Shown here: positions 5,294 through 10,685 of the stretch, piece by piece
Position numbering within the stretch: position 1 is the first letter of the stretch
How the letters are laid out: every line of letters starts with the position of its first letter
Assembly: GCA_009786315.1 (NCBI GenBank)
Contig: WQTM01000230.1
Coordinates: 1 to 39,279 of the forward strand
DNA: 39,279 bases
Direction: 5' to 3'
DNA from: Pseudomonadota bacterium
GTDB lineage: Bacteria; Myxococcota; Myxococcia; Myxococcales; Myxococcaceae
Program-made: the position numbers and the translations under genes
Notes under the pieces: model-generated
Database searches by the model: none
Told to the model about the DNA's origin: nothing
The model's input: only the letters and a program-made list of their open reading frames with translations

Positions 5294-6790
5294 TCAGTGG
5301 GACACATGAATTTCTTGGCCATTGGCGGCGTTTTGGGCGCTCAACTTCAATATGCCGTTGAAGTCCAACTCAAACCGAATTTTAATTTTGACGGTACCGG
5401 CTTTTCCAGGAGGCATTCCGGTGAAGGAATATTCTCCTATTTTTTCGCTTTCATTGGCCAGGCTGTCCCCTTGGAAGAGTCGCAAAGTCAATTCGGTTTG
5501 GTTGTCGAAGCTGGTGGTTGCGACGACTTCTTTTGTTTTGGGCAGGGGAGCAGAGCGAGGAATGACGACATGGAGTGAGCCGTCGGCTTTTTCAAAGCTG
5601 ATGTCCTGCGAGGTTGAATGGCCGAGTTGAAAGCGGACTTCAGAGTTTTCCAGGAGCGTATAGCCCAAAATAGCGGCTCCCATGGCGGGGCAATTGGTTG
5701 CGGTTTTGGCGAACTGGGGGGATTGTTGGAGGTGTTTGCTCAAAAGTGCTTGGAAAGCGGGCATGCGGGCCTGAGCTCCAACGAGGACAACGCGGCTGAT
5801 TTTTTGTTTGTCGGTATGCGTCTCTTTGAGCAGGCGTTCAACCAGTTGAATGGCGCGTTCGACCAGAGGAGTCCCAAGCTCTTCCAGCATTTCTTGGCTG
5901 AGGCGGAAGTTGAGGTCCACGGGGAGGGCGTTGTTGTCAATGGCGATGAAGGGGATGTTGAAGTTGATTTCTTGTTGGGAGTCTAGGTTTTTTTTGGAGA
6001 TTTCAGAGAGATTATAAATCCGTTGCATGGCCAACGGTTGTTGCGAGAGGTTGATGCCTGTCTGGGAATAGAAGAGATTCATGGCATAATTCGCAATGGC
6101 TTTGTTAAAGTCATCCCCTCCCAAATAGGGGTCCACCTTGCTTGCGACAATTTCCATTTTGTCCCCGTGGATTTCGACGAGAGCCGTCTCAAACGTAGTA
6201 CCGCCAAAGTCACAAGTCAGCAAAAGCTCCTGGTGTACCCCGGATGCCTTTGAAGCCAAGGCGATGGCGAGGGGGGTGTTGAGCAGTTGTTTGCAGTGAA
6301 TTCCGGAGAGCTCCATGGCTTCCATGAGTGCTTGGCGTTGGAGGTGAGAGAAGTTGGATGGGACGACGGCAACAGCGGGCAGGGGTTGGGACGAAGAGAG
6401 GCCATTGGAGAAGCCCTGCTTAAAATGCAGCAGGACTTTGGAGAGGATTTGGGTGGGGGTGAGCTCCTGGTTTCCCAGGCGTAACAAAAGCCCGTTTGGG
6501 GTTTGGTGGATTCCAAAACGGATGGGGCTATAATTTCGCAAGAACTCAACAGGGAGCAACTTACGGCCAAGCAAGTGGTGGTAGTGGGACACCGTAAGGG
6601 CGGGCCGCAAGAAGAGTCTCTGCTCCGCCGCATCCCCCAGCAACGCCTCTCCCCTGTCGTCCAACCCATAAGCATTGGCGCAGACTTCCCCTTGTTTTCG
6701 AAAGTTCCACCGCTTCTCAAGAAGTTGCGCAGAAAATGCCACAATCTTCGTTGAACCTATGTCAATGCCAATGACGGGAGTTGAGTCCAC
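5294..6790 (-). CDS. Hsp70/DnaK-family protein lacking the C-terminal helical lid
   Basis: VIGIDIGSTKIVAF, CDFGGTTFETALVEI, YLGGDDFNKAI, VGAQARMPAFQ; ends at NGILKLSAQNAANGQEIHVSH (end of the beta substrate-binding domain). GTG start. Confidence 0.85.
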   Translation of the reverse strand: MDSTPVIGIDIGSTKIVAFSAQLLEKRWNFRKQGEVCANAYGLDDRGEALLGDAAEQRLFLRPALTVSHYHHLLGRKLLPVEFLRNYSPIRFGIHQTPNGLLLRLGNQELTPTQILSKVLLHFKQGFSNGLSSSQPLPAVAVVPSNFSHLQRQALMEAMELSGIHCKQLLNTPLAIALASKASGVHQELLLTCDFGGTTFETALVEIHGDKMEIVASKVDPYLGGDDFNKAIANYAMNLFYSQTGINLSQQPLAMQRIYNLSEISKKNLDSQQEINFNIPFIAIDNNALPVDLNFRLSQEMLEELGTPLVERAIQLVERLLKETHTDKQKISRVVLVGAQARMPAFQALLSKHLQQSPQFAKTATNCPAMGAAILGYTLLENSEVRFQLGHSTSQDISFEKADGSLHVVIPRSAPLPKTKEVVATTSFDNQTELTLRLFQGDSLANESEKIGEYSFTGMPPGKAGTVKIKIRFELDFNGILKLSAQNAANGQEIHVSH

Positions 6791-7058: not shown

Positions 7059-8984
7059 ATGAAAGATGGACAACTTCTACATTTCTTTTGTGGCAAGGGG
7101 GGCTCAAGCAAGACGCTGTTGTCTTCGGCTTTTGCCTTGCGTGCTGCAACGAAGCAAAAATGGCTCCTTGTTTCCTGGGAGAGCAGGGGAAGTTTGTCGG
7201 AGCTTCTTCAGGTGAAGCTTTCGCAGCAGCCGAAGAAACTAGAGGGAAGAGGGGAGGGGGGCATTCTCTATGCGGCGGAGTGCGATCGCCTAAAGCTTGC
7301 AGAAAAATGGGGTGGCGTATGGAGGGCTTCCTTGGAGAAATATGCGCAGAAGGCGGGGATGTTGAGCAAGGAGGAGGTTTTGAAGTTGATTGCCCCGGCG
7401 ACAGAGTCCCTCAAGGATGTTGCGGGGTTATTCTGGTTATGGGAGCTTTCAAACAGCCAACGGTTTGATGGGATTGTGGTGGATGGCCCTTCTGTGGGCG
7501 CAAGCTTGCGTTTGTTGGGAGCGCTTCCGCGTTTACGTACCTATTTGGCGTTGTTGAGAAACGAGAAGGCTTCCAAGACGGCCAAGACGGTGGCGAAGCA
7601 GCCTTTGCCTTTGGGGGAGTGGACGGAGCTTTGCGAGAAGCTTTCTGCATGGATGAAGGACCCGGAGCGTTTTGCCTGGCATATTGCGGCATTGGCGGAG
7701 CCTTTGGCGGAGGCGCAAACCAAGGTTTTGCTGACGGAGATGAAGGCACAAGGCATTGTGCCGACGGAGCTTTTGGTTGCGCAGGTGGAGGCCAAGGATG
7801 AGGGCCCCGTCATATTTGCTCGCCGTGGTTTGCAGGCGCCTTCCATTCGAAAATATGGAAGTTGGTGTCCGCAAGTTTCTCTGGTGAAGCGTCGCATACA
7901 AGCGCCCGTTGGGCTGGAGGGGTTGGGGGAGTTTATAAAGGGTTGGGAGCCGGAGGAGGAGACGAGGGTTTTGGCATTTGCCGCGCATGAAGGCCCCCCC
8001 CCTCTCGTAAAAACCCCCTCCATGCCGGACATTGCCGCTCCCCCGTTGCCCCCGACGCGGTTTTTATTTTTTGGGGGGCCGGGAGGGGGTGGGAAGAGCA
8101 CCTGTGCGGTGGCGGCGGCGGTGGCGTTGACGGAGAAGGAGGGTCCCGTGTTGCTTTTGTCGACGGACGCAGCACATTCGCTTTCCGACGTTTTGCAAAA
8201 CCGTCTCATGGACGCAGAGTCTCAAGTACGAGGCACCAAGGGCCTATACGCCAGGGAGTTGGACGCGCAAGTATGGTTGAATGGCCTAAGGAAGCGCCTG
8301 AGGGAGAAGCTGAGTTGGGCATGGGGTACAGACGTTGCAGGGGGGGTGGACGTAGGGTGGGCGAAGGAACTCATAAAGAACCTGATAGAATTGGGCCCGG
8401 CGGAGTTGGAGGATTTTGCCCTCATTCAAGTATTGACGGATGCGTTGGTGCAGGAGCGTTTCAAACGTATTGTTGTGGATTTGCCGGACGACCTAACGGC
8501 GTTTCGGTTTTTGGATGCGATAGGCCCCATTCGCGCGTGGCTGCAAGGTTTGCGAGGGGCTTTTTCGAGGCACAAGGCCAAGGGTTTTGCGGCGTTTTTG
8601 GAAGAAGTGGCTTTTTGGGAGCAGCGGTTGGAGCGTTTTGAGGCTGCGTTGCAAAACCCTATGGAGTCGCGTTTCATTCTTGTTGGGCGGGCAGAAGCCT
8701 CTGTGGTGTCGGCGATGCAGCGTTCCATTCTATTCCTCAAGGCGAACAAGCTGCCATTGGAGCGCGTCATATTAAACCGTGTATTGCCCAAGTCCACCTG
8801 TGCGTTGACAGAGGAGAGGAGGGGGCAGGAGTTGGAGGTAGCCAAGCAGATGGAGAAGAAGCTGGGCATACCGTTGACGGTGGCGCCTGCTTTGGGGCGT
8901 TTTCCGGCGGGGCTTAGGGAACTCAAGGCATTTCGCACAGCTTGGTATGCATTGTCTATAGCGTCGCGCAGCAAAGCGGCATAG
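7059..8984 (+). CDS. Tandem two-domain ArsA/Get3-type ATPase with degenerate nucleotide-binding motifs
   Basis: Domain 1: FFCGKGGSSKTLLSSAFAL and VVDGPSVGASLRLL. Domain 2: FFGGPGGGGKSTCAVAAAVAL and STDAAHSLSDVL. Proline-rich linker between them. Confidence 0.8.
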   Translation: MKDGQLLHFFCGKGGSSKTLLSSAFALRAATKQKWLLVSWESRGSLSELLQVKLSQQPKKLEGRGEGGILYAAECDRLKLAEKWGGVWRASLEKYAQKAGMLSKEEVLKLIAPATESLKDVAGLFWLWELSNSQRFDGIVVDGPSVGASLRLLGALPRLRTYLALLRNEKASKTAKTVAKQPLPLGEWTELCEKLSAWMKDPERFAWHIAALAEPLAEAQTKVLLTEMKAQGIVPTELLVAQVEAKDEGPVIFARRGLQAPSIRKYGSWCPQVSLVKRRIQAPVGLEGLGEFIKGWEPEEETRVLAFAAHEGPPPLVKTPSMPDIAAPPLPPTRFLFFGGPGGGGKSTCAVAAAVALTEKEGPVLLLSTDAAHSLSDVLQNRLMDAESQVRGTKGLYARELDAQVWLNGLRKRLREKLSWAWGTDVAGGVDVGWAKELIKNLIELGPAELEDFALIQVLTDALVQERFKRIVVDLPDDLTAFRFLDAIGPIRAWLQGLRGAFSRHKAKGFAAFLEEVAFWEQRLERFEAALQNPMESRFILVGRAEASVVSAMQRSILFLKANKLPLERVILNRVLPKSTCALTEERRGQELEVAKQMEKKLGIPLTVAPALGRFPAGLRELKAFRTAWYALSIASRSKAA

Positions 8985-8997
8985 GAGGTTTGAAACG

Positions 8998-9966
8998 ATG
9001 GCCCTGAAAATAGCCTATGCTTTGGATTTTGAGCGACCGCTGATTGAGCTTGAGAACAAGATAGAGGAGTTGAAAGTCCTCAGTGAGACGGGGGCGGTGA
9101 ATTTCGACTCTGAGATTCTCCGTTTGGAGAAGCAGGCGAAGAAGTTGCAGGAGAAGATTTTTAGTGGATTGACGCGCTGGCAGGTGGTGCAGCTTTCCAG
9201 GCACAGTGCGCGCCCCTATTTTTCGGACTACTTACACTATTTATTTACAGATTTTTGTGAGTTGTCCGGTGACCGTTGTTTTGCTGATGACATGGCGATA
9301 GTGGGAGGGCTTGCGAAGTTTGGTGGGCAGCCTGTGGTGGTGATGGGGCACCAGAAGGGGCGGAACACGAAGGAGAACATGGCCCGGAATTTTGGCATGC
9401 CGAGGCCGGAAGGCTACCGCAAGGCGCGGCGGTTGATGGAGCTTGCCGCCCGGTTTTCCCGTCCCATTTTTACCTTTATAGACACGCCTGGGGCCTACCC
9501 GGGGATGGATGCGGAGGAGCGTGGGCAGGCGGAGGCGATTGCGGTGAATTTGGAGAGGATGGCCTCATTGCCCATACCGGTGATTGCGACGGTGATAGGG
9601 GAGGGTGGCTCCGGGGGGGCTTTGGCCATAGGCCTAGCGAACCGCGTACTCATGTTGGAGCATAGCATTTATTCCGTTATTAGCCCGGAGGCATGCAGCT
9701 CCATTCTCTACAGGGACGCGACGAAGGCGTCCAAGGCGGCCGAGGCATTGAAGTTGACGGCGCAAGACATTATGCGGTTGAAGGTGATTGATGAGGTGAT
9801 AGCCGAGCCAGTGGGTGGGGCGCACCGGGACAAGGAGAAGGCGGCGGAGTTGCTTGGCAAGGCGCTGAAGAAGCACCACCAGCAGTTATTGAAGATGACG
9901 CCCAAGCAACTCATTGCGAACCGCTACGAGCGTTTTCGAGCGATGGGGGCTTTTTCTGAGTTATGA
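8998..9966 (+). CDS. accA: Acetyl-CoA carboxylase carboxyltransferase subunit alpha
   Basis: LDFERPLIELENKIEEL, GDRCFADDMAIVGGLAKFGGQPVVVMGHQKGR, FGMPRPEGYRKA, IDTPGAYPG, GEGGSGGALAIG; SD AGGAGGT upstream. Confidence 0.97.
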   Translation: MALKIAYALDFERPLIELENKIEELKVLSETGAVNFDSEILRLEKQAKKLQEKIFSGLTRWQVVQLSRHSARPYFSDYLHYLFTDFCELSGDRCFADDMAIVGGLAKFGGQPVVVMGHQKGRNTKENMARNFGMPRPEGYRKARRLMELAARFSRPIFTFIDTPGAYPGMDAEERGQAEAIAVNLERMASLPIPVIATVIGEGGSGGALAIGLANRVLMLEHSIYSVISPEACSSILYRDATKASKAAEALKLTAQDIMRLKVIDEVIAEPVGGAHRDKEKAAELLGKALKKHHQQLLKMTPKQLIANRYERFRAMGAFSEL

Positions 9967-10685
9967 AGAGGCGGCCTTTTATTGTTGCATTGGATGGGCC
10001 CTCTGGGGCAGGCAAGTCAACGTTAGCGAGGGAGCTTTCGAAGCGGTTGGGGTTTCTTTGGGTAGACACGGGGGCGATTTACCGTTGTTTTGGCCTAGCG
10101 GTGTGGCGGGCCTATGGAGGCGGGGTGGGGCTTTTGGCTCAGCGTGAAGGGATATTAAGCCTTTTGTCGGCACTCCATATGGGTTTTGGGGAGGGGGGCT
10201 GTCGTGTATTTTTGAATGGGGAGGATGTGAGCGAAGCGATTCGAAAGCCTGAGGTGTCCTTGTTGACGAGCGAATTGTCTGCCTGGCCGGAGGTACGTGC
10301 CGCGCTGTTGGGGTACCAGCGTACGCTTGCGTTGGCCGCCTCTCGAGGGGTTATTTTGGATGGCAGAGACATTGGGACGGTGGTTTTTCCGGATGCGGAC
10401 TTGAAGTTTTTCATTACTGCGGTGGCGGAAGAGCGGGCGCGGCGTCGTCAGAGGGAGTTGGCAGGGCAAGGGATAGAGAAGACGGTGGAAGAAGTTTTTT
10501 CAGAGCAAGGCAAGAGGGACAGGGCGGACAGCCAGCGGGTGTTTGCGCCGTTGAGGCAAGCGGAGGGTGCGCACATATTGGACACGAGTGAGCAAAGTTT
10601 AGAGCAAGTGATAGATGGGCTGGAGAGGGAGGTGAGGCGCCATTGGGAGAAGGCGCAGCGGGACATACGTCATTTTGTTGAGTGA
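9963..10685 (+). CDS. cmk: Cytidylate kinase
   Basis: IVALDGPSGAGKSTLARELSKRLGFLWVDTGAIYR and GRDIGTVVFPDADLKFFITA; ATGA overlap with accA. Confidence 0.96.
   Translation: MKRRPFIVALDGPSGAGKSTLARELSKRLGFLWVDTGAIYRCFGLAVWRAYGGGVGLLAQREGILSLLSALHMGFGEGGCRVFLNGEDVSEAIRKPEVSLLTSELSAWPEVRAALLGYQRTLALAASRGVILDGRDIGTVVFPDADLKFFITAVAEERARRRQRELAGQGIEKTVEEVFSEQGKRDRADSQRVFAPLRQAEGAHILDTSEQSLEQVIDGLEREVRRHWEKAQRDIRHFVE

Follow-up and report, generated by a model that had tools for sequence, protein, structure and literature searches.

Current descriptions give Get3 and ArsA as dimers with two sites, and homodimers make it hard to test the need for both. The gene at positions 7059-8984 of the window, by which we mean the whole stretch of 39,279 nucleotides analysed here, encodes two domains of this kind within a single chain, and the motifs of the two domains are not alike. 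This raises the question whether such a protein works with two ATP sites or with only one. The original prediction, made from the window alone, was an ArsA/Get3-type double ATPase with complementary losses in its two sites, in which a lysine of domain 1 could complete a single composite site in domain 2. The assignment to the superfamily is supported by the present analysis, in which the region is a single real open reading frame with two ArsA_ATPase stretches. The protein matches PF02374 (Pfam) with 162.3 bits against a cut-off of 24.3, and TIGR00345 with 160.4 bits against a cut-off of 135, at which the profile level of the TRC40/GET3/ArsA superfamily is reached. The features of the gene are as follows, with residues numbered as in the window protein.

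7059-8984, forward strand: open reading frame of the double-domain ArsA/Get3-type ATPase, stop included, 641 aa
7059-7958, forward strand: domain 1, residues 1-300, candidate source of the trans signature lysine
7092-7118, forward strand: deviant Walker A of domain 1, GKGGSSKTL, residues 12-20; signature K13 and P-loop K18 kept, G17S and T20L
7173-7202, forward strand: switch I region of domain 1, SWESRGSLSE, residues 39-48; position of the catalytic Asp is Glu41
7482-7511, forward strand: switch II of domain 1, DGPSVGASLR, residues 142-151; D142 and R151 invariant
7803-7814, forward strand: place of the domain 1 CxxC, residues 249-252, GPVI; cysteine pair absent in the window
7959-8054, forward strand: proline-rich inter-domain linker, residues 301-332; 87% mean identity, 13 of 32 residues invariant, middle predicted disordered
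8055-8981, forward strand: domain 2, residues 333-641, with the P-loop and switch I of the predicted sole complete composite site
8076-8102, forward strand: P-loop of domain 2, GPGGGGKST, residues 340-348; signature lysine position is P341, K346 and S347 invariant
8160-8189, forward strand: switch I of domain 2, STDAAHSLSD, residues 368-377; D370, H373 and D377 invariant
8478-8507, forward strand: switch II of domain 2, DLPDDLTAFR, residues 474-483; D474 invariant, remainder degenerate
8799-8810, forward strand: place of the domain 2 CxxC, residues 581-584, CALT; one cysteine remaining

Motif counts were made on an alignment of 49 orthologues. The orthologues are full-length and spread over Myxococcaceae/Archangiaceae including Myxococcus xanthus (L063, 655 aa), and a genome survey found one in nearly all genomes of the window's family. 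Identity to the window protein is 84% in L041/G002, the only further genome of the same genus that gave a match, and 46-51% in most of the others. This nearest record is the metagenome-assembled genome Cystobacterineae bacterium Th196P3bin117, whose name is compatible with a termite-gut collection and which is apparently of termite-gut origin. Genomes of the window's genus (G000, G002) measure 2.1-2.7 Mb, the one holding the window contig 2.1 Mb, and those in the rest of the family mostly 4-13 Mb. A record titled Comamonas sp. KCTC 72670 (L085) carries a Myxococcus-like copy that is nested within Myxococcus in the tree and shows accA synteny; this record is mislabelled or contaminated.

A deviant Walker A motif with a signature lysine in each ATPase domain is a trait of the superfamily; it is present in domain 1 and absent from domain 2. 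None of the 49 orthologues has a lysine at the signature position of domain 2, which is occupied by Gln (29), Ser (7), Gly (6), Ala (3), Pro (2), Thr (1) or His (1). On the other hand, K13 and K18 of domain 1 and K346, S347, D370, H373, D377 and D474 of domain 2 are found in all 49. The loss is not a matter of chance, because it is family-wide while K13, K18 and K346 are invariant. Thus domain 2 does combine an intact P-loop and switch I (DAAHSLSDV) with a lost signature lysine, and domain 1 retains that of its GKGG motif, as had been read from the single sequence.

The second half of the supposed complementarity did not hold. SSKT in place of GKT had been taken as the site loss of domain 1, but the P-loop lysine K18 and Thr19 are both present and only Gly17 is changed to Ser. 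Aligned to the family, the window motif reads K13-G-G-S-S17-K18-T19 with Leu replacing T20. Residue 19 is Thr or Ser in every orthologue (the Mg-binding Thr in the window), and Gly17 occurs in 47 of the 49, Ser17 being confined to the window and L041, both reduced genomes. The exchanges G17S, T20L, D48E and H148A of domain 1 are restricted to the window's genus and are not sequencing errors, since the independent genome L041/G002 has the same letters. Across the family, the sole loss is that of the signature lysine in domain 2. Orthologues with two canonical P-loops, which would speak against a single composite site, were found in part only: both P-loop lysines are present, but the domain 2 signature lysine is lacking throughout. 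Three features had been overlooked, namely Glu41 at the switch I Asp position of domain 1, the degenerate switch II of domain 2 and the unusually conserved linker. The switch I catalytic position of domain 1 is Asp in 27 orthologues, Glu in 21 and Ser in one. In domain 2, the switch II motif DTAPTGH has shrunk to D-x-x-[PA] across the family; the window has its most degenerate form, DLPDDL.

For Get3 it is established that the lysine acting in trans takes part in catalysis and that the water is primed by the Asp of switch I (PMC10248533). Because the domain 2 P-loop and switch I residues and K13 are invariant and the domain 2 signature lysine is missing, one composite site appears complete, in which K13 joins the P-loop and switch I of domain 2, and the other appears to be left without a trans lysine. 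Completion of a single site in domain 2 by the domain 1 lysine, as first proposed, is predicted by this residue pattern; the model resembles closed ArsA. AlphaFold (AF2) models have a pLDDT of 80 and a pTM of 0.82 for the window protein, and a pLDDT of 85 and a pTM of 0.85 for that of M. xanthus. Both halves together align with ArsA, and the best targets are the MgATP-bound, closed Leptospirillum ferriphilum structures 9nbw/9nbo, with an rmsd of 6-8 angstrom for these ligand-free models. TM scores by target length against closed ArsA are 0.75-0.77 for the window and 0.73-0.74 for M. xanthus, compared with 0.66 and 0.68-0.69 against open L. ferriphilum ArsA. The predicted arrangement of the halves is roughly that of closed, ATP-bound ArsA, which fits a pseudo-dimer closing around nucleotide.

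We therefore propose the following mechanism. ATP would bind to the domain 2 P-loop via K346 and S347, with D370 of the domain 2 switch I as the catalytic element, and upon closure K13 of domain 1 would cross the interface and complete the domain 2 site. The mirror site on the domain 1 P-loop, without a trans lysine from domain 2, would at most hold nucleotide and not hydrolyse it efficiently, and would be further eroded in the window's genus. One active and one non-catalytic site are likely. We consider an ATP-driven chaperone or targeting cycle its likeliest role, acting on a hydrophobic or self-assembling protein client and not in arsenite efflux. The best overall explanation, which we hold with moderate confidence, is a one-site fused pseudo-dimer derived from two-site doubles of the gas-vesicle type and serving in a chaperone or targeting role.

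Because K18 is invariant, site 1 may still be able to bind ATP and perhaps to hydrolyse it slowly. This leads to the question whether both sites bind and turn over ATP unequally, site 1 being slow or regulatory and another residue, Gln341 in most members, partly taking over the trans role. The conservation of K18, Thr/Ser19 and D142 in all 49 orthologues and of G17 in 47 would agree with such a role, as would Gln being the commonest replacement. However, the seven different replacements (Q, S, G, A, P, T, H) are as expected for a lost function, and in 22 of the 49 domain 1 has Glu or Ser where switch I would have its Asp, so that we regard unequal turnover at two sites as unlikely.

Conservation in the family is lopsided. 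Mean identity is 56% in domain 1 and 74% in domain 2, with 26 of 300 and 78 of 309 residues invariant, respectively. The linker is the best conserved part, with the consensus E-G-P-P-x-L-V-x-x-P-S-x-P-x-I-x-A-P-P-L-P-P-T-R in most members. Its conservation lies at the protein level, because its dS between the window and L041 is not lowered, and it may act as a built-in gate or as a partner-docking segment. Site 2 could be weak in the window protein because its switch II is degenerate, more so than in any other member. That degeneration is also the sign to be expected of an ATP-binding scaffold without turnover, a conformational switch driven by ATP binding or exchange for which hydrolysis is unneeded. 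Yet K13 is among the few invariant residues of the fast-evolving domain 1, the trans lysine of Get3 has its role in hydrolysis (PMC10248533), and D370 and H373 are invariant as well, all of which makes a mere scaffold distinctly improbable.

A further possibility is gene decay in a reduced genome, in which case the odd motifs of the window copy would be mechanistically uninformative drift. The genome is indeed small for the family, 58 of 241 family-conserved positions (about a quarter) are changed in the window and L041 across both domains, and G17S and T20L fall within the domain 1 P-loop. On the other hand, two genomes whose proteins diverge by 16% both have an intact reading frame, and dN/dS between them is about 0.12 overall (dN 0.103, dS 0.872), with values of about 0.24 for domain 1 and 0.06 for domain 2. 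The gene is under purifying selection in the reduced genomes. Moreover, K13, K18, K346, D370 and H373 are all retained and the main asymmetry is not peculiar to reduced genomes, so that decay is a very unlikely explanation. Within the window's genus, no clear excess of decay is seen at the domain 1 site, as conserved positions are changed at similar rates in domain 1 (21/72) and domain 2 (37/169). Dispensability of the gene was also rejected as a reading of its absence from G001, a genome of the same genus, where accA is missing too and the contig is probably missing.

The proposed one-site pseudo-dimer was compared with known members of the fold. Get3/TRC40 (Methanocaldococcus jannaschii 3ug6, Methanothermobacter thermautotrophicus 3zq6) has the fold and the deviant Walker A in common with the family, but is a homodimer with two sites. 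Its CxxC motif is shared in both domains by 28 of the 49 orthologues; the other 21, including the window protein, have it in neither, and none has it in one domain only. This co-occurrence was rejected as strong evidence of a shared zinc site, as it rests on only three changes along the tree, a number that does not allow a sign test. A hydrophobic Get3-like client-binding insert was not seen in a crude test, in which the mean hydropathy of the insert regions is close to zero or negative. ArsA (E. coli 1f48/1ihu, L. ferriphilum 9nbw, Chlamydomonas reinhardtii ArsA1 5zme) is likewise a fused pseudo-dimer and in its closed form the best match to the models, but it has two canonical sites, and the bacterial pumps have arsenite cysteines and an ars context, neither of which was found for the window protein. 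The metal cysteines C113, C172 and C422 of E. coli ArsA have no conserved counterpart in the family. Despite the same fold and fusion and best structural matches to ArsA, a true arsenite pump ATPase is hardly credible given a TIGR04291 equivalog score of 90.1 against a cut-off of 650 bits, conserved family cysteines limited to C349, C581 and the CxxC pairs, a M. xanthus member without the three ArsA metal cysteines (PMC2963123), and no adjacent ars genes.

The origin of the one-sided protein can be traced through symmetric relatives. Distant doubles in families f4/f7, which belong to the same taxonomic order as the window's family, are colinear with it and have canonical GKGG[VA]GKT, DPAHS and CxxC motifs in both domains; L101-L103 of the outgroup are among those with CxxC in both. 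In the domain tree, starred branches make domain 1 of the family sister to domain 1 of these relatives and domain 2 to domain 2, with BagA, BagB and the ArsA halves placed elsewhere. Therefore the fusion is ancestral and the loss of the lysine derived. The double ArsA proteins of gas-vesicle loci (L099-L103; Clusters 4 and 6 in PMC2963123) are colinear, full-length matches up to 38% identical to the family, but differ in having two canonical sites, an unconserved linker and a position among gvp genes. Mean identity in five symmetric relatives is 61% in domain 1, 64% in domain 2 and 20% in the linker; by this comparison the lopsided domain conservation would have come after the lysine loss. Descent from symmetric two-site ATPases of the gas-vesicle type would then have involved, in the Myxococcaceae, loss of the domain 2 signature lysine, strong conservation of the proline-rich linker and a new place beside accA-cmk. 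The loci of the symmetric relatives contain gvpA-type, gvpF/L and gvpG genes. For the ancestors of the family, it is reasonable to suppose a chaperone-like role towards a client that is hydrophobic or assembling. Three of the f4/f7 doubles (L139, L140, L141) lie in gas-vesicle clusters that also encode a PAS histidine kinase and a receiver-only protein. GvpL/F had no match in the window's genome, but many larger genomes of the family carry GvpL/F genes elsewhere, so that a loss of gas-vesicle genes from the family as a whole did not take place.

The 2010 study "Functional Promiscuity of Homologues of the Bacterial ArsA ATPases" (PMC2963123) described homologues of ArsA that lie within gas-vesicle clusters. 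There, the Cluster 6 doubles include Mxa1 (M. xanthus, 655 aa) and Aba1, and Mxa1 is described as not linked to gas vesicles and without the arsenite cysteines (PMC2963123). Judging from organism and length, Mxa1 is almost certainly the orthologue L063, and like the window family it lies away from gas-vesicle genes. The two Walker-type motifs of the double proteins were said not to differ significantly (PMC2963123), whereas none of the 49 orthologues carries the signature lysine in domain 2, and the published equivalence is corrected by this family-wide loss. The one-sidedness was apparently overlooked although a relative had been listed in 2010, and a literature search for one-site or degenerate ArsA/Get3 proteins found none.

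The fused family is not the first one-sided case. Mycobacterial BagA/BagB (Rv3679/Rv3680, PDB 6bs3-6bs5) shows the same split between the subunits of a heterodimer (6bs3): BagA has GKGG and a degenerate switch I, and BagB parallels domain 2 with GAGGVGKTT, no signature lysine and a DPA switch I. The structures are reportedly those of Hu and colleagues, published in the Journal of Bacteriology in 2019. BagA and BagB are two separate proteins on another branch of the tree, whereas the window family is fused. Membership in BagA/BagB was ruled out, despite the same motif layout, by the tree and by the equivalog scores, as the window ATPase reaches 43.4 and 44.5 bits against NF053622 and NF053621 with cut-offs of 400 and 521. 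The window's genome also holds a BagA/BagB-like pair (L098, G000:C95), whose BagB-like protein has GPGGVGKTT and thus no signature lysine. The losses in the fused family and in BagB are likely, not certainly, independent, as the domain tree carries long-branch warnings.

The same split in the mycobacterial pair suggests a general route of specialisation of the fold. That at least two one-site conversions of the same polarity arose independently, in BagA/BagB and in the fused family, here with loss of the gas-vesicle context and a near-invariant linker, is a possibility we put forward tentatively. If true, the fused protein would offer a natural experiment that bears on the reason for two sites in dimers of the Get3 type. 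Each site can be mutated separately in one protein of the genetically tractable M. xanthus, with the symmetric sister group as a control. In the gene neighbourhood, two conserved genes follow the ATPase on the same strand.

8998-9966, forward strand: accA, starting 13 bp past the ATPase stop; conserved downstream neighbour
9963-10685, forward strand: cmk (cytidylate kinase), conserved, further downstream

Profile matches to accA, cmk and a Ser/Thr kinase agree with the downstream order originally read from the window. No arsenic genes had been seen next to the ATPase, and indeed no arsB, acr3 or arsR is among the profile-annotated neighbours, which are an Hsp70-like gene, accA, cmk and the kinase. 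Because the gap between the ATPase and accA is only 13 bp, the two are likely co-transcribed in the window. Among the 37 loci with room for it, accA lies downstream on the same strand in 30, usually followed by cmk. Seven members (L043, L045, L047, L077, L083, L084, L093) are without the accA neighbourhood, and every one of them falls in that part of the tree which has no CxxC. Immediately upstream in M. xanthus are genes for a histidine kinase and for a sigma-54 response regulator, with TPR and accA genes also near. The divergent gene upstream in the window (5294-6790) is of Hsp70 type but has only 498 aa, and many relatives have a distant Hsp70 gene about 5-9 kb away from that of the ATPase. 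Further downstream, positions 13873-39042 hold a run of TPR genes, one encoding 4085 aa, together with an FHA protein. This run has been kept in the reduced genome, and it may resemble the M. xanthus clusters for gliding motility or sporulation (Glt/Nfs).
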